Shown here piece after piece: positions 8,868 to 37,622 of a stretch of 42,066 nt of DNA (its first letter is position 1; each line of letters begins with the position of its first letter). A program made the translations under genes and the position numbers. The notes below the pieces were generated by a model that worked only from the letters and a program-made list of their open reading frames with translations, was not told the origin of the DNA and ran no database searches. Origin of the DNA: an uncultured Fusobacteriaceae bacterium (lineage in GTDB: Bacteria > Fusobacteriota > Fusobacteriia > Fusobacteriales > Fusobacteriaceae); NCBI GenBank assembly GCA_947072665.1, contig CAMTIW010000006.1, positions 1 to 42,066 of the forward strand. The letters are read 5' to 3'.

Positions 8868-10157
8868 TTATTTTTCAAAAACAGTTTGAGTTTCAACCTC
8901 AGTTGTAAGAGCTTTTAGTGCTTTTTCAACTATATGTCTTCTTAATATTTTTTCTTCATCTGCATCTATTAGAGGATTTCCTAATGGATAAGGTATTGCA
9001 AAAGCTGGCACAATTCTATTTGCTCCAACTGTTAAAGAGATTGGTACAACAGTGCAAATATGCACTACAGGAATTCCTGTTCTTTCTATTGCTTTTACCA
9101 TCGTTGCTCCGCAACGAGTACAAGTTCCTCAAGTAGAAGTTAAAATTACTCCATCTACTCCTGCTGCAACTAATTTTTTAGCAAATTCAGTTGCAAATGC
9201 ATCTGAACTTTTAACAGAAGTTCCATTTCCTACAGTTGTATAATAATAAGGGTATATTTCCCCTATTTTCCCTTCTGCTAACATATCTTTTAATACATCT
9301 ACTGGAAGTACTCTATTAGGATTTTCATTAACATATGTTGGATCGTAACCACCATGTGCTGTTTCTCCCATATTATCTATTGAGTATTCTCCATACTTTG
9401 AAGCTGAAGAAGATTCTATATGATCTGGATTTTTAAGTGGTACAATTCCTCCAGAAGTAACTAGCGCTATTTTAGCTTTAGATAAATCTTTTATTGCTTT
9501 TCCAGGTTCAACTCTATCAAATGTTGGCATAGCATATTCAGTTTCAAATACTTGATTAGAAAGTTTTTTTACTAACATATCAACAGCTCTTTCTGCTCCA
9601 ATTTTTTCAGCAAAATAATTCTCTCTTATTCCTCTTAATATGTATCCTTCTTCTTTTGGGGAACCTATTTTTTCTTTGTTTACTAATTTCTTTGCAAGTT
9701 TTGCAATAGAAGGAATAGCTTTTCTCATATCTGCTGCTGAATTTTTTGTTTCCACAATATATAAATCCTTTTTAAACATATCTGCACCTGGATTTTCTAT
9801 ATACATACCAGTTATAACAGGGATATTTAAATTTTCTTCTATGAATTTACAGATAGTAGCACAAGCAACTCCATATCTACCAGCATTAAAAGCTGGACCA
9901 GCAATTAATAAATCTGGATTTTCTTCCTTAATTAATTCTAAAATTTTAGCTTTAGCTTCTTCTAAATTTTCATTGAAATATGAGTCACCACAAATGACTG
10001 TTGCAACAATCTCACCTTCTTCTCCAAACTCTTTTTCAAGACCTAAACCAGGTCCAATTTTCCCAACTCTTTTTTCTGGTGGAATATGAGCCATTTCCTC
10101 TCCACCAATATTAGCAAAAAACTGATTTATATAGTGTACAATTCTTAATTTTGACAT
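8868..10157 (-). CDS. grdB: Glycine reductase component B, selenoprotein gamma subunit
   Basis: Substrate-binding selenoprotein of the reductase: it forms a Schiff base and passes the carboxymethyl group to protein A. The frame is interrupted by one in-frame TGA at 9129-9131 and continues to a TAA at 8868. Reading it as selenocysteine gives 429 residues with Sec343 in a U-G-T-C-T-R-C motif, the known active site of this family, and restores the usual length. A hairpin suited to SECIS function begins 12 bases after the TGA. Start ATG at 10155-10157. Sarcosine- and betaine-specific paralogues (GrdF, GrdH) share the motif; glycine is favoured because grdE, grdA and grdX are present and there is only one B paralogue. 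The piece after the TGA should not be annotated as a separate protein. Confidence 0.93.
9102..9116 (-). promoter_or_regulatory. SECIS hairpin of grdB
   Basis: On the minus strand CGTTGC-GGA-GCAACG forms a perfect six-pair stem with a GGA loop, 12 bases 3' of the Sec TGA. Distance and the G at the start of the loop fit bacterial SECIS rules (hairpin right after the UGA, guanine in the apical loop). Confidence 0.82.
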
Positions 10158-10293: not shown

Positions 10294-10767
10294 TTATAAA
10301 TATTTACAATTTTTTCTAACGCTTGTCATTTCTTCAACGATACTTGGTACATCAAGAACCATTTCCATCATGCCAATTTGCTCATCAAAAATTTCTGCAT
10401 TAACAGAATTTTTAAATTCTTCTTCTAATACATGGTAAACAGTTAATCCTAGTTCCACTCCTGCTAGTACTCCAGCATAAGTTGGATCTCCTATTGTTAC
10501 TGTTTCTGCTGCTAGACCAGAAGCTTCTGCTTCTGCCGCTCCTAATAAAATTACTATATTTTCAGCACCATACTCTCCTGCCAAAGAGTTGATTCTTTTT
10601 TGATTTTCCAAATCCATAGCTCCTGCAGCCGTTCACACAAAGCATTCAGTTGCAGCAAATAATACTTGAACATTTTCTACAGTTTCCACGCAAGCTTTTA
10701 TTGCTTCTCCAGGAATACCGTCTCTGTCTCCAATGATTATTACTTTTTTATTTTCAAGAATATTCAT
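10294..10767 (-). CDS. grdA: Glycine reductase protein A, selenoprotein
   Basis: The small central carrier of glycine reductase, which accepts the carboxymethyl group on selenocysteine and is re-reduced by thioredoxin. From the ATG at 10765-10767 the frame contains one TGA at 10633-10635, then runs to the stop at 10294. Reading it as selenocysteine gives 157 residues, the family's usual length, with Sec45 in the canonical CFVU redox motif. The N terminus [17 protein letters not shown] and the internal [20 protein letters not shown] are characteristic of GrdA. An ATG at 10617 is an internal Met, not a start. It lies 31 bases after grdE and upstream of grdB. Confidence 0.95.
10602..10614 (-). 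promoter_or_regulatory. Candidate SECIS hairpin of grdA
   Basis: On the minus strand GATTT-GGA-AAATC forms a five-pair stem with the same GGA loop as the grdB hairpin, 18 bases after the Sec TGA. The stem is weak, and a four-pair alternative closer to the TGA exists, so the exact element is uncertain. Confidence 0.5.
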
Positions 10768-25710: not shown

Positions 25711-28700
25711 TTATATTTTACTTATATCAAAAACTTCTATATCTTTTGTACTTGTTTTACTTCTTTGAATTTTTATTATTGCATTTAAAGTATCCAGTGA
25801 AGTTAAAACATTTACTCCGAACTCTATTGCTATTCTTCTAATTTTAAATCCATCTCTTTGAGAATCATTAGCTTTTGTAGGAGTATTTATTAATATATCA
25901 ATTTTTTTATTTTTTAATAAATCTGATATATTAGGAGAAACATCTCCTATCTTCCCAACCTCTACACACTCTATCTTATTTTCTTTTAAATATTTAGCTG
26001 TTCCTTTTGTTCCATAAAGTTTTGTACCCATATGTGATAATTCCTTTGCCATTTCTAAAAATTCATCTTTATCTTTATCTCTTATTGTTAAAAGTATAGA
26101 TTTATTATTTAAATCAATATTTCTACCTGCAGCAACGAGTCCTTTGTAAATAGCTTCATCAACAGTTCTTCCCACACCTAAAACTTCACCAGTTGACCTC
26201 ATTTCAGGTCCTAATGAAACTTCTACTTTTCCAAGTTTTTCTGTTGAAAAAACAGGAACTTTAACTGCTATTATATTTGGTTTTTTATATATTCCAACTC
26301 CATATCCTAAATCTTTTAATTTTTCACCTAATATAACTCTAGTGGCTAAATTTATTACTGGCACTTGAGATATTTTAGATATGTATGGAACTGTTCTAGA
26401 TGATCTTGGGTTTACTTCTATTACATATATTTCATTTTCATAGGCTATAAACTGAATATTCATCATTCCAATTACTTTTAGCTCTAAAGATAATTTTTTA
26501 GCTATTTCAAGTATTTTTTCTTCTGTACCTGGATATAAATTTTGACTTGGATATATAGTTATAGAGTCTCCTGAATGAACTCCTGCTCTTTCTAAATGCT
26601 CCATAACTCCTGGAATTAAAACATCTGTTCCATCACATATTGCATCTATTTCTATCTCTATTCCATTTAAATATTTATCTATTAATACAGGAGTTTCTGA
26701 ATCTCTAATAAAAGAAGCTTCTAAATATTTTACTAAACTTTTTTCTTCGTGACAAATCTCCATTCCCTGTCCACCTAACACATACGAAGGTCTTACTAGT
26801 ACTGGATATCCTAAGTTTTCTGCTGTTTTTATTCCATCTTCTCTCTCTCTAATAGCCTTACCCTTAGGTCTTTTTATATCCAATTTTTCCATCATGGCTT
26901 CAAATCTTTCTCTATCTTCTGCCTCATCTATTTTATCTGCACTTGTTCCCAATATTTTAATTCCTCTTTTATGCAAATCTTTAGCTAGTTTTATTGCTGT
27001 TTGCCCACCAAATTGTAATATAACTCCCTCTGGTTTTTCTTTATTTAAAATATTCATTACATCTTCTGTAACAAGTGGCTCAAAATAAAGTCTATCTCCT
27101 GTTGTGTAATCTGTGGATACTGTTTCTGGATTATTGTTAATAATAATACTTTCTATACCCATTTCTTTTAAACATTTTATAGAATGAACTGTACAGTAAT
27201 CAAATTCTATTCCTTGACCTATTCTAATTGGACCAGAACCTATTACTACAACTTTTCTTTTAGTATTAACTTCAACTTCATCAAACTCATCATAAGTAGA
27301 ATAAAAATATGACGTTTCTGCTGCAAATTCTCCAGCACAAGTATCTACAATCTTATAAACTGGTTTTATACCATATGAGATTCTTTTAGCTTCTATATCC
27401 TCTTCTGATATCTTCATAAGTTGAGCTATTCCTTTGTCTGAAAAACCTTTTTTCTTTAAATTTCTTAAAGTTTTTTCTGAAAGTTCTGAGAATTTAGTAT
27501 GTTTCAATTTTTCCTCTTGTTTCACTATCCATTCTATTTTTTCCATGAAATATTTATCCATACCTGTTATTTTTTGAAGTTTTTCTTTTATATAACCTCT
27601 TCTTAACATTTCAGCAGCAATAAATATTCTCTCATCATCTGGTTTCATAACTAGAGTTTTCAATTCTTCAATAGTTAAATTTTTAACAGCTGGATGGTCT
27701 AAATTATAGCTTCCTATTTCAAGTGATCTAATCCCTTTTAAAAAAGCTGATTCGAAACTATTTCCAATAGCCATGATTTCACCAGTAGCCATCATCTTCG
27801 TTCCAAGTTTTCTATCTGCTTTTTTAAATTTATCAAATGGCCATTTAGGAATTTTAACTACAACATAATCTAAAGCTGGTTCAAAACAAGCAAAAGTTTT
27901 CCCTGTTACCTCATTTATTATTTCGTCCAATTGATATCCCAATGCTATCTTAGATGCAACTCTAGCAATTGGATAACCAGTTGCTTTAGAAGCCAGTGCA
28001 GAAGACCTTGACACTCTTGGATTTATTTCAATAATCGCATATTCAAATGATTTTGGATTCAGTGCAAATTGAACATTACAACCTCCAATAACTCCAATTT
28101 CATTTATAATTTTAATAGCAGATGTTCTAAGCATTTGATATTCTTTATCTGAAAGAGTTTGAGAAGGAGCTACCACTATTGAGTCACCAGTATGAACTCC
28201 CACTGGGTCAATATTTTCCATGTTACAAACTGTTATGCAATTTCCATTGGAATCTCTAACTACTTCATACTCTATTTCTTTCCAACCATAGATAGATTTT
28301 TCCAAAAGAACTTGTCCTACCCTAGAAAGTTGAAGACCTTTTAATAAAATTTCCTCTAACTCTTTGGGATTAGCAGCTATTCCACCACCAGTTCCTCCAA
28401 GTGTGTAAGCAGGTCTTACCACAACTGGATATCCCATTTCTTTGGCTTTTGCAAAACCAGCTTCCATACTTTCTACAATATGACTTTCTATTGTAGGTTC
28501 ATCTATTTTTTTCATTATATCTCTAAAAAGTTCTCTATCTTCTCCATTTTTTATAGCTTCTATTGGAGTTCCAATAACTTTAACTCCAAATTTATCTAAA
28601 ACTCCTTTATCAAAAAGTTCCACAGCAAGATTTAAAGCAGTTTGTCCACCCATACCAGCTAATATTGAATCTGGTCTTTCTATTTCAATTATTTTCTCTA

Positions 28701-28917
28701 GATATTCTAAAGTTATTGGCTCTAAATATATTCTATCTGCAACTGTTGTATCAGTCATTATAGAAGCTGGATTTGAATTTACTAGAACAACTTCAATACC
28801 CTCTTTTTTTAAAGTTTCACAAGCTTGAGTTCCTGAATAATCAAACTCTGCTGCTTGTCCTATTATTATTGGACCTGAACCTATTATTAAACATTTTTTT
28901 ATATTTTTATTTAACAT
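25711..28917 (-). CDS. carB: Carbamoyl-phosphate synthase, large subunit
   Basis: Makes carbamoyl phosphate from bicarbonate, ammonia from CarA and two ATP. At 1068 residues it is full length: the two homologous ATP-grasp halves begin with [20 protein letters not shown] near 11-30 and [17 protein letters not shown] near 560-576, and the C-terminal allosteric MGS-like domain ends the protein ([15 protein letters not shown] near 1010). The ATG lies two bases after the carA stop, so translation is coupled. It supplies both arginine and pyrimidine synthesis; its promoter arrangement here ties it to the latter. Confidence 0.97.
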
Positions 28918-28919
28918 TT

Positions 28920-29984
28920 TTATTTAGCCTCCTTAATAACTTTTAAAAAATCATCGAATAAATAATTTGAATCTTCTGGACCAGGCCAAGCTTCTGGATG
29001 ATATTGTACAGATGCAATATTTAATTCTTTACATCTCATTCCTTCATTTGAACCATCATTTACATTAATATGCGTCTCCTTCATTTTTTCAGGCATTTTA
29101 TCAATTACATAACCATGATTTTGTGAAGTTATAAATATTTTGTTTTTCTCTAAATCTTTAACTGGATGGTTACAACCTCTATGTCCATATTTTAATTTTT
29201 TAGTAGTTCCTCCAAGAGCCCAAGCTAAAAGTTGATGTCCTAAGCATATTCCCACTATTGGTTTTTTTCCTATTATTTTTTTTATTTCCTCTATAACATC
29301 ACTGAGTTCAGCAGGGTCTCCTGGTCCATTAGAAAGGAAAACACCGTCTAAGTCATGTGAAAGTATCTCTTTGGCTTTTATATTCCACGGGAAAACTGTT
29401 AAAGAACAATTTCTTGCAGTAAAATTTCTTAAAATATTATTTTTTACTCCAAAATCAATTACTCCTATTTTTAAATCTGGATTTTCTACCTCTATCTTAT
29501 ATATTTCTTTGGTACTTACATTTGGAACTGCTGATATATTTGAAAATTTTGAAAACTTTTCTATTATTTCACTTTGTTTCAAATCTTCTGTTGTTATTAT
29601 AGCCTTCATAGTTCCATTTTCTCTTATAATTTTTGTTAGATGTCTAGTATCTAAGCCTTTTATTCCAATAACATTATGCTGTTTTAAAAAACCATCTAAA
29701 GTCATTTCACATCTAAAATTATTTGGTAATTTAGCTTCTTCTTTTATAATTAAAGCTCTAACTTTTACCCCAGAAGATTCCATATCTTCTAAGTTAATAC
29801 CATAATTTCCAACTTGTGGATAAGTTAGTACCACCATTTGTCCAAAATATGAAGGATCAGTTAATAACTCTTGATATCCTGTCATTCCAGTATTAAAAAC
29901 TAATTCCCCTACACTTTCATTTAAGCTCCCAAAAATTTTTCCATGAAATATCATTCCATTTTCTAAAATTAACTTCCCTTTCAA
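28920..29984 (-). CDS. carA: Carbamoyl-phosphate synthase, small (glutaminase) subunit
   Basis: 354-residue glutamine amidotransferase subunit. The N-terminal domain has [20 protein letters not shown] near 29-48. The class I glutaminase domain has the nucleophile in [15 protein letters not shown] near 241-255 and the His-Glu pair in [10 protein letters not shown] near 326. Start is TTG at 29982-29984 after AGGGGGC; no ATG fits better. First structural gene after the attenuated leader. Confidence 0.97.
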
Positions 29985-30005: not shown

Positions 30006-30037
30006 AAAAAAAAAGATATAGCTAAATAGCTATATCT
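30006..30037 (-). terminator. carAB leader attenuator (intrinsic terminator)
   Basis: On the minus strand AGATATAGCT pairs perfectly with AGCTATATCT around ATTT, followed by nine T, ideal for intrinsic termination. It lies before carA, just upstream of its ribosome-binding site, and overlaps the last codons and stop of the leader peptide gene. A ribosome finishing the leader would cover the first arm and allow read-through. Confidence 0.88.
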
Positions 30038-30162
30038 AAAATATATAAATTATTAATATTTTTTAAAATAAAAAATTTATTTTTAAATGAATTAGAAAAT
30101 ATATTTTTAAAAATTAATATAAGATTGTTAGTTACTAATTTATCATCTATAAATTTTTTCAT
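30022..30162 (-). CDS. carAB leader peptide (46 codons)
   Basis: A short frame starts at ATG 30160-30162 six bases after a perfect GGAGGAG site and about 30 bases below the promoter. It encodes 46 residues rich in Phe, Ile, Leu, Asn and Lys (start MKKFIDDKLVTNN), with no known homology. Its mRNA is extremely U-rich, and its TAG stop lies inside the attenuator hairpin. I read it as a regulatory leader in the manner of E. coli pyrL: when UTP is low, RNA polymerase pauses on the U tracts, the ribosome catches up and blocks the terminator. Confidence 0.75.
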   Translation of the reverse strand: MKKFIDDKLVTNNLILIFKNIFSNSFKNKFFILKNINNLYILDIAI

Positions 30163-30197
30163 AATTTTCTCCTCCATTTTATTTTGCACTAGGATAG

Positions 30198-30225
30198 ATT
30201 ATACTTGATTTTTAATTTTTGTCAA
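30198..30225 (-). promoter_or_regulatory. Promoter of carAB
   Basis: On the minus strand consensus TTGACA (30220-30225) and TATAAT (30198-30203) with a 16-base spacer. It lies 29 bases after the fic stop codon and about 215 bases upstream of carA, leaving room for the attenuated leader. Confidence 0.88.
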
Positions 30226-30253
30226 TTTATTTTTTTAATTTAATTTGAAAATA

Positions 30254-31468
30254 TTACAATTTTTCTTTTACCCAACTAGTTAATATATGTTTTGAAGGTG
30301 TATGACTTATTTTTTCTATATATCCTTTAATTTTTAGTGAATTTAGGTATTTATTAAGTGTCACTCTAGAAGCTATTTCTAAATATTTCAAAATATTACT
30401 ATCTAATAATGTAAAATCATCAGAAAAAACATAGTTTTGAATGTAAAAAAATAGGATATCTTTTTCAACTTCTTTTAATTTTATATTTTCTAAGTAAGAT
30501 TTAGCGTGTTCTAACTTTAAAATCTTATCCTTCAACATAATCAAGATACTATCTTGACCTTTCAAAATAAATTCTAACATACCTTTAATAAAAAAAGTTA
30601 CTTCTCCACAGTTTCTACTATTGGAAGTTTCAGAGAACAGTTTTGAATAGCCTTCTTTATCTGCAAATATTGTATAGGATAATGATAACCCTGTATATAT
30701 ATCAATTTTTTTTGCTAAATAATTTGAAAATAATACTCTTCCAAATCTTCCATTACCATCGTAGAAGGGGTGAATGTATTCAAAATAATAATGAACAATG
30801 GAAACTTTTATTAAAGCAGGAATATCTTTTTTATTCATGAATTCTATTAAACTTTCCATATGAGATAAAATAAGCTCTTCAGATGGGTCTCCAGTATGAA
30901 TATTTTTAAATCCATCAGTTATATGAATTCCCTCTTTTCTAAAAAATTTTCCATCTAATTGATTTTCAGGATTTTCTAAAATATCTTCTTTAAATATTTC
31001 ATCATATATCTTACGAATATCTTCTGAAGAATTTATTTTATCTATTTTCCCCTCAATTATTTTTAAATATTTATTTATGATTCCAGATAATCTAGTATTT
31101 TTTTTACTGTTTAAACTATTATAAATATCTTTCTTTGTGGTTCTTACCCCTTCTATACCATTAGTTTTTATTATTTCATTAACCATTATTTCATTAATAC
31201 AGGAATATTTTCCAATGTTCGGTATTTTTTCTGATAATATAGTTATTTCTTTACTTTTCATAAAAATTTTTTCTTGTAAAATTTGAAATTCTGGAAATGA
31301 AAGATAAAAAAGTCTAAAAACTTCTGAAGAATTTCTCTTCCCTTTAGTTATAGGGTTTATTTCTAAATCAGTTACATAAGCACATGGATTTTCCAATCTT
31401 TTTTTTAATTCTTCATTTATATCATATTTTTTATAAAATAGTTTCTCCAAAGTTTGATAATCTTTCAT
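30254..31468 (-). CDS. Fic family protein (class II AMP transferase)
   Basis: A 404-residue protein with an N-terminal Fic_N-like region, a Fic domain and a C-terminal winged helix. The catalytic loop HPFYDGNGRFGR (about residues 233-244) matches the HPFx(D/E)GNGRxxR consensus, so AMP transfer to a target hydroxyl is expected. The inhibitory helix motif TNGIEG near 102-107 fits (S/T)xxxE(G/N) and lies N-terminal to the catalytic loop, defining class II. The winged helix (TLNKYLNSLKIKGYIEK near 370-386) suggests DNA or regulator contact. ATG at 31466 with AAGGAGG. Its target is unknown. It sits between the two divergent pyrimidine operons but has no evident mechanistic link to them. Confidence 0.9.
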   Translation of the reverse strand: MKDYQTLEKLFYKKYDINEELKKRLENPCAYVTDLEINPITKGKRNSSEVFRLFYLSFPEFQILQEKIFMKSKEITILSEKIPNIGKYSCINEIMVNEIIKTNGIEGVRTTKKDIYNSLNSKKNTRLSGIINKYLKIIEGKIDKINSSEDIRKIYDEIFKEDILENPENQLDGKFFRKEGIHITDGFKNIHTGDPSEELILSHMESLIEFMNKKDIPALIKVSIVHYYFEYIHPFYDGNGRFGRVLFSNYLAKKIDIYTGLSLSYTIFADKEGYSKLFSETSNSRNCGEVTFFIKGMLEFILKGQDSILIMLKDKILKLEHAKSYLENIKLKEVEKDILFFYIQNYVFSDDFTLLDSNILKYLEIASRVTLNKYLNSLKIKGYIEKISHTPSKHILTSWVKEKL

Positions 31469-31738
31469 AATTCCTCCTTTTTATCATTTTATAATATATT
31501 ATATCATATTATAATAACAAAAAGTATAGTTTTTATGTTTTTAATAAAAATAGAGTGAATAAAAAATTTACTCTGTTCTTTATGTTCTCTGGAGGCATAT
31601 CCATTCCTTTTGTCAATATATTACAACAAAGAACTTTATGGTTTTTTTAAATTTTTATTGAAGTTCATTTGCAAGTTCTAAAATGAAATATATAATACAT
31701 TTTAATTTATATCAAATTATATTTATAAAAAAAAATGC
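31469..31738. other. Intergenic stretch between fic and the pyr promoter
   Basis: No gene is supported here. It contains the ribosome-binding site and TATAAT-like words upstream of fic, an imperfect hairpin AGAGTGAAT/ATTTACTCT (about 31552-31574), and a patch near 31575-31640 that is less AT-rich than its surroundings and could be a relic of coding sequence in either direction. Confidence 0.35.
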
Positions 31739-31767
31739 TTGTTAATTTTACTTTTTCATGATAGAAT
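31739..31767 (+). promoter_or_regulatory. Promoter of the pyrBKDFEC operon
   Basis: TTGTTA (31739-31744), 17 bases, TAGAAT (31762-31767). It lies 34 bases before the leader peptide ATG and its GAGGGGG site (31787-31793). Boxes are less perfect than those of carAB. Confidence 0.65.
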
Positions 31768-31801
31768 TTTCCAAATATAAAAAATTGAGGGGGAATTATA
31801 A

Positions 31802-31987
31802 ATGAATTTATTTTTTAAATCAAAATTTATTAAATTTAAATCTGTAGTCTCATTTATCTTTTCTATTTTCCAATTTTATTTAGATAATTATATTTTCAAA
31901 AACATTAATTATATATTTTATTATAAAGAAAGAAGTGTCTTCTATGATTTTCATAGTCGTCACTTCTTTTTTTATATAATAAATTAG
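31802..31987 (+). CDS. pyrB operon leader peptide (61 codons)
   Basis: Small frame directly behind promoter and a strong Shine-Dalgarno. The 61-residue product (start MNLFFKSKFIKFK) has 15 Phe, all encoded by U-rich codons, and no recognisable domain. Codons about 43-57 form the two arms of the intrinsic terminator, and the TAG stop (31985-31987) overlaps the Shine-Dalgarno of pyrB. A ribosome close behind RNA polymerase would therefore prevent the hairpin and then be delivered to pyrB. Architecture matches a pyrL-type UTP-sensing leader; a true functional protein is unlikely. Confidence 0.75.
   Translation: MNLFFKSKFIKFKSVVSFIFSIFQFYLDNYIFKNINYIFYYKERSVFYDFHSRHFFFYIIN
31929..31973 (+). terminator. 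pyrB leader attenuator (intrinsic terminator)
   Basis: AAAGAAGTG (31929-31937) pairs with CACTTCTTT (31961-31969); an inner CTATGA/TCATAG stem with a TTT loop extends the hairpin past a small internal loop, and T7 follows. It ends 26 bases before the pyrB ATG and is fully contained in the leader frame. Confidence 0.86.
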
Positions 31988-31999
31988 GAGGTATTATTT

Positions 32000-33061
32000 A
32001 TGATTAATTTTATATCTATGGAAGATTTTTCAAAAAAACAACTTTTAAATGTTTTAGAATTAGCAAAAGAATTAAAGCATAATCCACAAACTAACCTAAT
32101 TGATAATAAAATAATAGCTACTTTATTTTTCGAACCTTCTACTAGAACTAGATTATCATTTACCTCAGCAGTGTATAAAATAGGTGGAAAAGTTTTAGGT
32201 TTTGATTCCCCAGATGGAACTTCTGTTCAAAAAGGCGAATCTTTAAGAGATACAATAAAAGTTATTGAAAATTATTCTGATCTTATTGTTATGAGAAACC
32301 CACTGGAAGGCTCTGCTAAATTTATCTCTGATTTCTCTACTGTTCCAATTATTAATGCTGGAGATGGTTCCAATGAACATCCTTCACAAACATTTTTAGA
32401 TTTGTTCACGATTTACGAAGAACAGGGGAGAATAGAAGGTTTAAAAATTGCATTTATTGGAGATTTAAAATATGGAAGAACAGTTCATTCTTTAACTAAA
32501 GCACTATCACTTTTTAACTGTGAATTTTATTTTATAGCACCAGATATAATTCAAATTCCTGATTATATCACTACAGATTTAGATAAAAAAAATATAAAAT
32601 ATAAGTTACTTAATGATTTTAATGAAGTAATAAACAATATAGATATTATGTATGTAACAAGAATTCAAAAAGAAAGATTTGATAATATTGATAACTATGA
32701 AGAAGTTAAAGATAGTTTTGTTATAAAAAAGTCAAATTTAGAAAAAGTTAAAGAAAATTTAATAATTCTTCATCCCTTACCTAGAGTTAATGAAATTTCA
32801 ATAGATGTGGATAATACAAAATTTGCCAAATATTTTAAACAGGCTGCAAATGGTGTCCCTGTAAGACAAGCTTTAATTGGAATAGCTTTAAATAAACTTA
32901 ATTTTGAAAAATTAACTTCTATTAATAAAACTATTTTATCCACTAATACTGTTATTTGTAAAAACTCAAAATGTATTGCTAAAAATGAAGAAACTGAAAA
33001 TAAATACATTCTAGAAGATGGTATTAAAAGTTGCTACTATTGTGGAAAAAAAATAAACTAA
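32000..33061 (+). CDS. pyrB: Aspartate carbamoyltransferase fused to a PyrI-type zinc domain
   Basis: Commits carbamoyl phosphate and aspartate to pyrimidine synthesis. Residues 1-about 305 are a complete catalytic chain: carbamoyl-phosphate site FEPSTRTRLSF near 44-54, HPSQTFLD near 131, HPLPRVNEI near 258, and the chain end QAANGVPVRQALIGIALNK. Residues about 308-353 match only the zinc-binding domain of regulatory chain PyrI, with Cys320, Cys325, Cys345 and Cys348 (CKNSKC...CYYC). The nucleotide-binding domain of PyrI is absent and no separate pyrI is seen. The ATG follows TAGGAGG, shared with the leader stop. First gene of the six-gene pyr operon. Confidence 0.95.
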   Translation: MINFISMEDFSKKQLLNVLELAKELKHNPQTNLIDNKIIATLFFEPSTRTRLSFTSAVYKIGGKVLGFDSPDGTSVQKGESLRDTIKVIENYSDLIVMRNPLEGSAKFISDFSTVPIINAGDGSNEHPSQTFLDLFTIYEEQGRIEGLKIAFIGDLKYGRTVHSLTKALSLFNCEFYFIAPDIIQIPDYITTDLDKKNIKYKLLNDFNEVINNIDIMYVTRIQKERFDNIDNYEEVKDSFVIKKSNLEKVKENLIILHPLPRVNEISIDVDNTKFAKYFKQAANGVPVRQALIGIALNKLNFEKLTSINKTILSTNTVICKNSKCIAKNEETENKYILEDGIKSCYYCGKKIN

Positions 33062-33920: not shown

Positions 33921-33940
33921 AAATTTTAGTGGAGGTTATT

Positions 33941-34855
33941 TTGAATAGATTAGAAACAACTTTTTTAGGATTTAAATTCAAAAATCCTATTGTAACATCT
34001 TCAGGTTGCTTTGGATTTGGACTTGAATATAAAAATTATTTTGATCCCAATGAACTTGGTGGAATAGTTGTAAAAGGATTAACTCTTGAGCCTAGAGACG
34101 GTAATTTAGGTACTAGAATAGCAGAAACTCCAGCTGGAATGTTAAATTGTGTTGGGCTTGAAAATCCTGGAATAGATGTCTTTGAAAATATAATATTAAA
34201 AGAAATAAAAAATAGTGGAATTACTTCTCCAATCATTGTTAATATCAATGGGAAAACACTTGAAGAATATATTGATATTGCTAAAAGAGTGGAAAAAATA
34301 AAAGGAATTGATATTGTTGAATTAAATATCTCTTGTCCCAATGTTAAAGATGGTGGTATGGCTTTTGGAGCTAATCCAGAAGTGGCTGGTCTTGTTACTA
34401 GAGAAGTTAGAAAAGTATTATCTAAACCACTTATTGTAAAATTATCACCTAACGTAACAGATATTGCATATATAGCTAAAGTTGTAGAAGAGAATGGTGC
34501 TGATGCAGTTTCTCTTATAAATACTTTATTAGGGATGGCAATTGATATAAAAACTAAAAAACCTATACTTGGAAATATTATGGGGGGACTCTCTGGACCA
34601 GCTGTTAAACCTGTTGCTTTAAGAATGGTCTATCAAGTTGCAAAAACTATAAAAATTCCTATTGTAGGTATGGGTGGAATTAATTCTGCTGAGGATGCTT
34701 TGGAATTTATCATGGCTGGAGCTACACTTGTTTCCCTTGGAACTGGAATTTTTATTAATCCTATTCTTCCATTGGAAGTAAAAGATGGACTGCTTTCATA
34801 CTGTAATGAAAACTCATTAAATAATATTCAAGATATCAGAGGCTGTATCTTATAA
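33941..34855 (+). CDS. pyrD: Dihydroorotate dehydrogenase B, catalytic subunit
   Basis: FMN enzyme, class 1B, oxidising dihydroorotate to orotate; works with PyrK. I place the start at TTG 33941, five bases after GGAGG (33931-33935), giving MNRLETTFLGFKFKNP and 304 residues; a GTG at 33929 would put the Shine-Dalgarno inside the gene. Motifs: SSGCFGFG near 20-27, the catalytic cysteine in NISCPNVKDGGMAFG near 130, IVGMGGINSAEDALEF near 240 and VSLGTGIF near 266 for phosphate binding. Confidence 0.95.
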   Translation: MNRLETTFLGFKFKNPIVTSSGCFGFGLEYKNYFDPNELGGIVVKGLTLEPRDGNLGTRIAETPAGMLNCVGLENPGIDVFENIILKEIKNSGITSPIIVNINGKTLEEYIDIAKRVEKIKGIDIVELNISCPNVKDGGMAFGANPEVAGLVTREVRKVLSKPLIVKLSPNVTDIAYIAKVVEENGADAVSLINTLLGMAIDIKTKKPILGNIMGGLSGPAVKPVALRMVYQVAKTIKIPIVGMGGINSAEDALEFIMAGATLVSLGTGIFINPILPLEVKDGLLSYCNENSLNNIQDIRGCIL

Positions 34856-34880: not shown

Positions 34881-35600
34881 ATGAATATATCAGATAAAAT
34901 AATTATAGCACTGGATTTTCCAACTACTGAAGAAGCAAAAAAAATAGTTGAAGAATTAGGAGATGAAGCTACTACTTATAAAGTTGGACTTGAACTTTTT
35001 TTAAATTCTAAAGGTAGTATGGTGGATTATTTAGTAAAAAAAAATAAGAAAGTTTTTTTAGACTTAAAATTTCATGATATACCAAATACAACTGCCATGG
35101 CATCTATCTTTGCAGCTCATGAAAAATGTTTTATGTTTAATGTTCATGCTAGTGGTGGAAAAAAAATGATGACAGAAGTTGCTAAAAAAGTTAAAGAATT
35201 TAACAAAGAAGTTCTTGTTATTGCAGTTACTATTTTAACTAGTATAAGCGAGACAGAACTTAAAGAAACTTTTAGTTCTACATTTTCTTTAAAAGAATTA
35301 GCTTTAAACTTAGCCAAAATAACAAAACAAAGTGGCTTAGATGGAATTGTTTGCTCTCCTTGGGAAGCAAATGACATAAAAAAAGAATGCGGACATAACT
35401 TTAAAACTATATGCCCAGGTGTAAGACCTCTTTGGTCTTTAACAAATGACCAAGAAAGAATTATGACTCCATACAATGCAATTTTAAACGGTTGTGATTT
35501 TTTAGTTATAGGAAGACCTATAACTAAACATGAAAATCCAAAACTTGGATTCAATCTTATTTTAGATGAAATTAAACTAGCATTACAAGTTCAAAAATAA
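34881..35600 (+). CDS. pyrF: Orotidine 5'-phosphate decarboxylase
   Basis: Last step to UMP. The 239 residues show the signature LDLKFHDIPNT near 60-70 with the catalytic Asp-x-Lys-x-x-Asp array, IALDFPTTEEA near the N terminus, and the phosphate-binding region ICPGVRPLW and FLVIGRPIT near the C terminus. It matches the short bacterial PyrF group. ATG with ATAGGAG. Followed by the longest gap of the operon (113 bases), which contains a hairpin. Confidence 0.96.
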   Translation: MNISDKIIIALDFPTTEEAKKIVEELGDEATTYKVGLELFLNSKGSMVDYLVKKNKKVFLDLKFHDIPNTTAMASIFAAHEKCFMFNVHASGGKKMMTEVAKKVKEFNKEVLVIAVTILTSISETELKETFSSTFSLKELALNLAKITKQSGLDGIVCSPWEANDIKKECGHNFKTICPGVRPLWSLTNDQERIMTPYNAILNGCDFLVIGRPITKHENPKLGFNLILDEIKLALQVQK

Positions 35601-35713: not shown

Positions 35714-36358
35714 ATGATAGATAATATTCAAGTTGCACAAGCTTTATTAAAAACAGAGGCTGTAAAATTAAATGTACAAGTTCCATTTACATTTGTTTCT
35801 GGAATAAAAAGTCCTATTTACTGTGATAATAGGAAAATGATAGGATTTCCTGAAGAAAGAAATATCGTTGTAAAAGCATTTATAAATAAAATTAAAGAGC
35901 TAGAAAAAAATGGTACTGATTTTGATATTATAGCAGGAACATCAACAGCTGGAATTCCTTGGGCTGCTTTTATCGCCATGGAATTAAATAAGCCAATGGC
36001 CTATATTAGAGGAGAAAAAAAAGCTCATGGTGCTGGAAAACAAATAGAGGGAGCAGACTTTAAGGGAAAAAAAGTTCTCATTATTGAAGATCTTGTTTCT
36101 ACTGGTGGAAGTTCTATTAAAGCTATAAAAGCAACAATAGAAGCTGGAGCTATATATACTGAAGTTCTTTCTATTTTCTCTTATGAATTTAAAAAGGCAT
36201 ATGATATGTTTTCTTTAGAAAATATAAAATGGTCCTCTTTATCTAATTTTGAAATTTTACTAAATGTAGCACAAACAGATAACTATATTACTGAAGATGA
36301 ACTATTAATAGCTGGGAAATGGAATAAAAATCCACAAACTTATGGAGTTGAGCTATAA
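35714..36358 (+). CDS. pyrE: Orotate phosphoribosyltransferase
   Basis: Transfers phosphoribose from PRPP to orotate. The 214 residues contain the PRPP-binding motif VLIIEDLVSTGGSS near 118-131, SGIKSPIYCDNR near 29-40 and the flexible catalytic loop RGEKKAHGAGKQIEG near 95-109. ATG after AAGGAG. It ends one base before pyrC. Confidence 0.96.
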   Translation: MIDNIQVAQALLKTEAVKLNVQVPFTFVSGIKSPIYCDNRKMIGFPEERNIVVKAFINKIKELEKNGTDFDIIAGTSTAGIPWAAFIAMELNKPMAYIRGEKKAHGAGKQIEGADFKGKKVLIIEDLVSTGGSSIKAIKATIEAGAIYTEVLSIFSYEFKKAYDMFSLENIKWSSLSNFEILLNVAQTDNYITEDELLIAGKWNKNPQTYGVEL

Positions 36359-36359
36359 T

Positions 36360-37622
36360 ATGCTACTAATAAAAAATGCTAAAGTTGTTGTTGGAGAATA
36401 TCTTGAAGCACTTTCTTTATTAGAAAAAGATTTAACTATTATAACTGATATATTAATTAATGATGAAGGTTTTATAGAGAAAATAGAAAAAAATATTAAT
36501 AGTCATACGAACAATAATACTATTCAAATAATAGATGCAAATTTTAATTATGTTATTCCTGGAATTATTGACCCCCATACACATATGAGAGACCCAGGTC
36601 TCTCTTATAAAGAAGATTTTCTTTCAGGAAGTAAAGCCTGTGCTAAAGGTGGAATTACAACATTTTTAGATATGCCCAATACAATTCCAAATACAGTCAC
36701 AGAAAATATTTTAAATGAAAAAAGAGAAAATTCTAAAAATCGTTCTTATGTTGATTATGGTTTCCATTTCGGGGGAAGTAGAAAAGACAACAGTATAGAA
36801 ATTTCAAAAGTAAAAAATTCTGTTGCATCAACAAAATTATTTTTAAATATGTCAACAGGTGATATGCTAGTTGAGAATATTGAAACAATTGAGAATATTT
36901 TTAAAAATTCAAAATTAATATCTGTTCATGCAGAAGATGAAAAAGTAGATAATGCCATTGAGTTTGCTGATAAATTTAAAACACCTTTATATCTTTGTCA
37001 TCTCTCTAAAAGAACAGAGGTTGAATCTTTAAGAAAAGCAAAACAAAATGGAATAAAGATTTATGGAGAAGTTACACCACATCATTTATTTTTATCTCAA
37101 GAGGATAGGAATGATTCTACTACAAAGGAACTTCTTTTAAGAATGAAACCTGAGCTTAAAAGTAAAGATGATAACCTTGCCCTTTGGGAAGCTTTAAAAG
37201 ATGGTACCATTGATACTATTGGAACTGATCATGCCCCACATAATTTAGAAGAGAAAATGAAATCTCCTACTTTTGGTATACCTGGTGTTGAGAACTCTTT
37301 AGAACTTATGCTTTTAGGAGTAAAAGAAAATAGAATCACACTGTATAAACTTATTGAACTTATGTGTAAAAATCCAGCTAAAATTTTTAATATATCTAAG
37401 AAAGGTGAAATAAAAATAGGTAATTATGGTGATTTAGTTATAATTGATACAGATAATGTGTATACTATCAATAATAAAGATGTTATTTCTAAGTGTGGTT
37501 GGACCCCATATCATTCAATGAAAACAGGTGGAACTGTTATTTCAACTATTTTAAGAGGAAATATTGTTTATAATAATAACTCTTTTTATGATATAAAAGG
37601 AAAAGAAATTAAATATTTATAA
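36360..37622 (+). CDS. pyrC: Dihydroorotase
   Basis: Cyclises carbamoyl aspartate to dihydroorotate. Amidohydrolase fold with metal-binding DPHTHMRDPG near 65-74, HAED near 183, CHLSKR near 208 and TIGTDHAPH near 287. I prefer ATG 36360, one base after the pyrE stop (420 residues, start MLLIKNAKVV); an ATG at 36342 inside pyrE has no Shine-Dalgarno. Long DHOase of the class I type. Last gene of the operon, closing the set pyrBKDFEC that with carAB covers all of UMP synthesis. Confidence 0.95.
   Translation: MLLIKNAKVVVGEYLEALSLLEKDLTIITDILINDEGFIEKIEKNINSHTNNNTIQIIDANFNYVIPGIIDPHTHMRDPGLSYKEDFLSGSKACAKGGITTFLDMPNTIPNTVTENILNEKRENSKNRSYVDYGFHFGGSRKDNSIEISKVKNSVASTKLFLNMSTGDMLVENIETIENIFKNSKLISVHAEDEKVDNAIEFADKFKTPLYLCHLSKRTEVESLRKAKQNGIKIYGEVTPHHLFLSQEDRNDSTTKELLLRMKPELKSKDDNLALWEALKDGTIDTIGTDHAPHNLEEKMKSPTFGIPGVENSLELMLLGVKENRITLYKLIELMCKNPAKIFNISKKGEIKIGNYGDLVIIDTDNVYTINNKDVISKCGWTPYHSMKTGGTVISTILRGNIVYNNNSFYDIKGKEIKYL

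Follow-up and report, generated by a model that had tools for sequence, protein, structure and literature searches.

Paired U-rich leaders before the pyrimidine operons of Fusobacteriaceae as probable UTP-sensitive attenuators

In an uncultured member of the Fusobacteriaceae, the two divergent operons for UMP synthesis each begin with a short U-rich open reading frame (ORF) that overlaps an intrinsic terminator. Judged by its anatomy, each of these leaders is very probably a transcription attenuator of the pyrBI type that would sense UTP through the speed of RNA polymerase relative to that of the ribosome. UTP-sensitive attenuation is familiar from textbooks, chiefly through pyrBI and pyrE of enterobacteria. 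The principle is known in E. coli and other enterobacteria; the new elements here are its occurrence in another phylum, the use of paired leaders for the two operons, and a U ramp that extends diffusely over 80 nt. No description of a Fusobacterial pyr attenuator was found in open-licence PMC full texts, and priority is not certain.

Leaders of the two pyrimidine units

The window is the whole stretch of 42,066 nt that was analysed, and it belongs to a draft Fusobacteriaceae genome (G000) of 2.38 Mb in 228 contigs that is 85% complete. The features of its two pyrimidine units are as follows.

30225-30198, minus strand: carAB promoter, TTGACA and TATAAT 16 nt apart, a perfect 12/12 match to consensus
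30175-30170, minus strand: Shine-Dalgarno (SD) sequence of the carA leader, GGAGGA, 7 nt before the ATG
30162-30022, minus strand: carA leader ORF, U-rich, 46 aa, ATG start; MKKFIDDKLVTNNLILIFKNIFSNSFKNKFFILKNINNLYILDIAI
30006..30037, minus strand: intrinsic terminator of the carA leader, hairpin 30037-30014 (dG -11.1) with a U tract behind it
28920..29984, minus strand: carA, TTG start; Pfam CPSase_sm_chain and GATase
25711..28917, minus strand: carB; Pfam CPSase_L domains
31739..31767, plus strand: putative promoter of the pyrB unit, TTGTTA and TAGAAT 17 nt apart, a weak 9/12 match
31787..31793, plus strand: SD sequence of the pyrB leader, GAGGGGG
31802..31987, plus strand: pyrB leader ORF, U-rich, 61 aa, ATG start
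31928..31973, plus strand: intrinsic terminator of the pyrB leader, inside the leader ORF, hairpin 31928-31970 and a U tract
32000..33061, plus strand: pyrB; Pfam OTCace_N, OTCace and PyrI_C; TIGR00670
33111..33920, plus strand: pyrK, electron-transfer subunit of dihydroorotate dehydrogenase; Pfam DHODB_Fe-S_bind
33929..34855, plus strand: pyrD; Pfam DHO_dh
34881..35600, plus strand: pyrF; Pfam OMPdecase
35714..36358, plus strand: pyrE, phosphoribosyltransferase; Pfam Pribosyltran, assigned by operon position
36342..37622, plus strand: pyrC, amidohydrolase; Pfam Amidohydro_1, assigned by operon position

An earlier sequence-only reading of this DNA had proposed twin leaders of one architecture on two divergent pyrimidine operons, lying on opposite strands about 1.5 kb apart. 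Both units do present an SD sequence, a T-rich frame, an overlapping terminator and a structural gene, and 1,640 nt separate the start of one leader from that of the other. At carA, the terminator overlaps the leader ORF over its final 16 nt. At pyrB, the terminator hairpin has a stem interrupted by an internal loop (dG -17.7 by RNA folding), and the stop codon TAG of the leader overlaps the SD sequence of pyrB itself (TAGGAGG). The putative pyrB promoter resembles an extended -10 element, with TG before the second hexamer. Up to the hairpin, the T fraction is 0.47 in the carA leader and 0.52 in the pyrB leader; for the window as a whole, the plus strand has a mean T of 0.396 and the minus strand one of 0.326. 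A GTG at 30189 was offered as the start of the carA leader by a mechanical ORF list; it is an unlikely choice, since the SD sequence precedes the ATG at 30162, which is the most likely start.

Together, carAB and pyrB-K-D-F-E-C supply all enzymes for the six steps from bicarbonate and glutamine to UMP, as assigned by Pfam and, for pyrE and pyrC, by position. The idea that the two units between them cover UMP synthesis is borne out by this gene content.

Conservation among relatives

For the survey of relatives, the 46 nt preceding each T run were folded. This took the place of a strict search for one-stem terminators, which had passed over stems with interruptions, the one before pyrB in the window among them. 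The resulting finder, which couples this fold to an SD-scored ORF caller, recovers E. coli pyrL as a positive control (a leader of 44 codons whose stop lies 47 nt beyond the start of the hairpin). The sample comprised 99 regions upstream of pyrB or carA from 61 Fusobacteriaceae genomes. The full architecture of SD sequence, ORF and terminator before the first gene was present in 86 of these regions (39 at pyrB and 47 at carA), spread over 12 of the 14 genera of the family. The sequence-only reading would have been contradicted by relatives with one such leader only; 32 genomes carry one at pyrB and one at carA. In three genera (g8, g10 and g14), pyrB is oriented like carA and follows it by a few kilobases, after carB, and a single leader stands at carA. 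Named carriers include Cetobacterium, Fusobacterium mortiferum, Psychrilyobacter and Ilyobacter polytropus.

Within the 86 regions, most leaders have an AGGAGG-like SD sequence, and 46 mutually dissimilar leaders serve as representatives. In all 46, the stop codon falls between -6 and +67 nt from the 5' end of the hairpin, so that a translating ribosome that had caught up would reach the hairpin and cover its 5' arm. The leader frame is open, and the other two frames contain 134 and 219 stops. The hairpin z-score is below -2 in 46/46, a figure to be read in the knowledge that the finder itself selects for hairpins. The leader peptides show no likeness across genera, nor do those of carA resemble those of pyrB, in agreement with the dissimilarity already remarked upon for the pair in the window.

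The distribution has gaps and extensions. In genus g12, neither a leader upstream of pyrB or carA nor a PyrR was found. In the family Leptotrichiaceae, several genera have a leader (G064, G084, G085 and G088 by the finder and others by eye), and in the Leptotrichia-like genus g21 neither leader nor PyrR was found. As g12 and g21 illustrate, the pathway can run without a leader or PyrR.

The pyrB leader of Ilyobacter polytropus is present in RefSeq as a hypothetical protein, WP_013388910.1 (NC_014633.1, 598660-598830); the carA leader of this organism is without annotation there.

Enrichment of U and selection on the peptide

T makes up 38% of the first half of the leaders and 59% of the second. 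Measured back from the hairpin, the T fraction stays at 0.48-0.63 for 80 nt and drops to 0.25-0.31 at a distance of 91-150 nt, below the genome mean. The enrichment is diffuse: E. coli pyrL has a discrete U tract, these leaders do not, and no definite pause site can be seen in them. The first halves contain 20% Lys and 5.8% Arg, and many leaders present a U-poor head rich in Lys and Arg before the ramp (for example, L047 and L013), which may be of use for initiation, for speed or for the peptide.

Codon choice indicates at which level this composition is maintained. In the second halves, Ile is encoded by ATT and ATA at 101:37 compared with 2736:3831 in genes (p = 1.6e-13), fourfold-degenerate NNT:NNA stands at 66:40 (p = 4.5e-5) and Leu TTR is preferred over CTN at 97:17 (p = 1.1e-8); these p-values are optimistic owing to shared ancestry, and the two genes and the unrelated paralogues count as separate replicates. 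Third-position T amounts to 67% in the second halves and 36% in genes, and in 46/46 representatives it is higher in the leader than in the leader's own structural gene. A synonymous bias is also seen at Ile, Ser, Val, Tyr and Asn codons. Selection for Phe codons or hydrophobic residues alone would leave synonymous sites resembling those of genes. Since the observed sites differ, the signal is at the nucleotide level: selection for U acts on the nucleotides. C is avoided as well, with NNT:NNC at 223:7, which points to UTP rather than CTP.

Phe accounts for 24% of codons in the second halves and 4.7% in genes, as might be expected if these were amino-acid attenuators in which Phe/Leu/Ile-rich leaders sense charged tRNA in the manner of pheL. 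A short ORF before a terminator is indeed a feature shared with pheL, trpL and hisL. This explanation is nevertheless very unlikely. Sensing of tRNA does not need a synonymous bias at Ile, Ser, Val, Tyr and Asn codons, and the Fusobacterial bias is one of U at synonymous sites and not of one codon; Phe, moreover, has no link to UMP synthesis and is not a product of it. The leader ORF enters the terminator, whereas the ORFs of amino-acid attenuators stop clear of it (PMC4824070). Judged by overall folding against shuffled sequence, no general antiterminator is evident: the RNA between the SD sequence and the terminator is only slightly more structured than the shuffles, with a mean z of -0.93 and 10/46 below -2.

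A second explanation takes the leaders as small functional membrane peptides, or as nascent chains that stall the ribosome as SecM and TnaC do, in which case their U-richness would follow from hydrophobic codons. Many leaders do join a basic head to a hydrophobic tail, and the Ilyobacter pyrB leader is annotated as a protein. Their dN/dS of 0.45-0.50, compared with 0.12-0.20 for the structural genes, also lies below the 0.65-1.05 simulated without peptide selection, a comparison that is confounded by U-driven effects of codon position and in which pairs share branches. The explanation is still improbable. The peptides are unlike one another between genera and between carA and pyrB, and a peptide has no need of an overlapping terminator. 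Hydrophobic stretches of genes are likewise without a comparable synonymous U bias: in a nearly closed Fusobacteriaceae chromosome (G019; 1.93 Mb, 1,628 called genes) that was used as a genome-wide control, the ATT share is 0.43 in such stretches and 0.81 and 0.68 in the leaders. The Ile bias relative to hydrophobic gene stretches is significant for pyrB and carA leaders separately. Some feature of the peptide, perhaps the basic head, may be constrained as well. Of the earlier suggestion that the leaders are selected for U rather than for peptide, the first half is upheld by the synonymous sites, and the exclusion of the peptide is less secure in view of the dN/dS values.

Specificity for pyrimidine units

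In the G019 control, the layout of SD sequence, ORF and overlapping terminator occurs at 12 places among the 1,628 genes. When these places are ranked by T in the last 60 nt before the hairpin (tail T), pyrB and carA take the top two positions, at 0.58 each. The others include rpmH, a ferredoxin gene and secG with their own terminators, the names being recognised from translations. Intergenic 60-nt windows of this chromosome have a mean T of 0.36, and 1.45% of them reach 0.58. U-richness above the local background, which the sequence-only reading had made a point of, is therefore evident both in this measure and in the synonymous bias. Run over the 36 large ORFs of the window, the finder returned U-rich leaders only at carA and pyrB.

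Paralogues extend the pattern. Further carA copies of the pyrimidine type are preceded by a leader in 7/7 genomes, with leader sequences that are unrelated. By comparison, a second type of carA, which starts with MYGALYLEDG or KGYLYLSDG and lies inside other operons, has a leader in 0/6 cases; it is taken to be arginine-linked because several copies are near carbamoyltransferase and arginine genes. Clostridia carA homologues are without a U-rich leader, one metagenome-assembled genome (MAG) excepted. Clostridia leaders that were flagged by the finder have a tail T of 0.33-0.42 and were judged unrelated. The exceptional MAG (L241, labelled Clostridia, SnakePit) has a carA 68% identical to that of the window and a U-rich leader of the same kind; it may be misassigned, or the genes may have been transferred.

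Could ordinary AT-rich intergenic sequence have produced short frames and terminators by chance? The genome is AT-rich, and at the window locus a consensus terminator scan, which misses the pyrB hairpin, found 1 terminator where 1.5 were expected from shuffles. It is conservation and the genome-wide scan that make the locus significant, not the counting of terminators. Given that the architecture is present in relatives and recurs in 12 genera, and given the stop spacing, the synonymous bias and the highest genome-wide ranks, the probability left to chance is negligible.

PyrR and other regulators

Terminator hairpins just upstream of pyr genes are typical of PyrR leaders. This speaks for a reading of the Fusobacterial leaders as PyrR-type or riboswitch leaders, in which the short frame is incidental. 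Such a reading is, however, extremely unlikely. In 93 of the 96 genomes of the order, no PyrR scored above the cut-off, and the same holds for the draft genome of the window (85% complete). An Rfam scan of the window leaders returned no family, and among ten loci scanned the PyrR site (RF00515) was found only at the pyrR gene of genome G015, where the PyrR-binding RNA match lies upstream of the gene (L317, 1114-1236). Outside the terminator, the leaders have no marked structure, and an open frame with an SD sequence is present throughout.

The three genomes with PyrR all belong to genus g4. There, a distant pyrB adjoins pyrR and has no U-rich leader of the kind described here, and two carA copies from the genus are without a leader. 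By appearance, the whole control system has been exchanged in this genus.

UTP-dependent slippage at the start site, which occurs at E. coli pyrBI and carAB (PMC6245113), was considered as a further means of control and set aside; no clear U run is present at the predicted start regions of the window.

Proposed mechanism

We infer leader translation, termination at the hairpin and the response to UTP, and the assignment to the pyrBI kind is made by anatomy. RNA polymerase would start upstream of the leader, cross the U-poor head and then enter the U-rich stretch of about 80 nt before the terminator. When UTP is plentiful, polymerase would move fast and the ribosome would lag behind, allowing the hairpin to form and transcription to end short of carA or pyrB. 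With UTP scarce, polymerase would slow or pause within the U-rich stretch and the ribosome would close up. In that position the ribosome would occupy the 5' arm of the hairpin, permitting read-through into the operon. With one leader on carAB and the other on pyrB-K-D-F-E-C, all six steps to UMP would be tied to one signal without a dedicated regulator. Control of the pathway by one metabolite without a protein regulator had been put forward before; its second part agrees with the lack of PyrR outside one genus, and its first, with UTP as the signal, is presented here as a model.

A broader and more tentative proposal, about which there is rather more doubt than confidence, is that Fusobacteriota possess an independently evolved UTP sensor. 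It would consist of the overall U density of a translated 80-nt ramp, with no fixed pause site, conserved peptide or regulator protein, and it would be placed on every pyrimidine unit and move with the units through operon rearrangement and into paralogues.

If the leaders are of the pyrBI type, then about 90 natural examples varying in U density, hairpin and stop position are at hand. This variation could make the rules of ribosome-polymerase coupling readable from comparative data. Under the model, nucleotide supply by itself would govern the whole of UMP synthesis in Fusobacteria. A further prediction is that entries annotated as hypothetical proteins, such as WP_013388910.1 upstream of Ilyobacter pyrB, represent leaders and not working proteins.

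Relation to known systems

The pyrBI operons of E. coli and Salmonella are described as subject to UTP-sensitive attenuation with pyrL as the leader gene (Roland, Liu and Turnbough 1988, as cited in PMC4824070 and PMC5021804). A ribosome that is tightly coupled across the leader prevents the terminator there, and pausing couples translation to transcription (PMC5021804, PMC4824070). The Fusobacterial leaders resemble this arrangement in the SD sequence and leader ORF before pyrB, the terminator within the ORF or at its end, and the U enrichment upstream of the hairpin. They differ in their peptides, which are without likeness to that of pyrL, and in the form of the enrichment: pyrL has a short U/C tract and a tail T of 0.28 by the same measure, whereas the Fusobacteria have a ramp of about 80 nt and a tail T of 0.5-0.6. 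The Fusobacteria also have a leader on carAB, an operon that is controlled at two promoters in E. coli (PMC6245113).

For carAB of Pseudomonas aeruginosa, the description in PMC4997734 reports a leader peptide and suggests pyrimidine attenuation. Compared by description only, it matches the Fusobacterial case in having a leader peptide before carA and differs in that arginine control is also present (PMC4997734). The PyrR attenuators of Bacillota (RF00515) are similar in that uridine nucleotides control pyr operons through a terminator; they need both PyrR and a PyrR-binding RNA, which within the Fusobacteriaceae are found together only in genus g4. A survey of premature terminators makes no mention of Fusobacteria or UTP (PMC2965389). 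According to the same survey, Proteobacteria and Actinobacteria were the only groups in which leader peptide systems had been demonstrated until it added a case from Firmicutes.

Other features of the window

The C-terminal extension of the window PyrB resembles the metal-binding domain of PyrI, and in Ilyobacter pyrI is a separate gene. Between the two divergent pyrimidine promoters sits a gene of the Fic/DOC family (30254-31468, minus strand) with 43% identity to a stretch of Fusobacterium vincentii CP084075.

A third match of the leader finder in the window is not U-rich and corresponds to the 3' part of a selenoprotein gene. This gene (8868-10157, minus strand) encodes a GrdF-like component B selenoprotein of sarcosine/glycine reductase and is split by an in-frame TGA at residue 343, with the result that ORF callers report two genes; a SECIS_4 element lies at 9091-9128. 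At 10294-10617 (minus strand) lies a fragment resembling the reductase selenoprotein A, GrdA, that begins at profile position 47, and its true start is probably upstream of another selenocysteine TGA.
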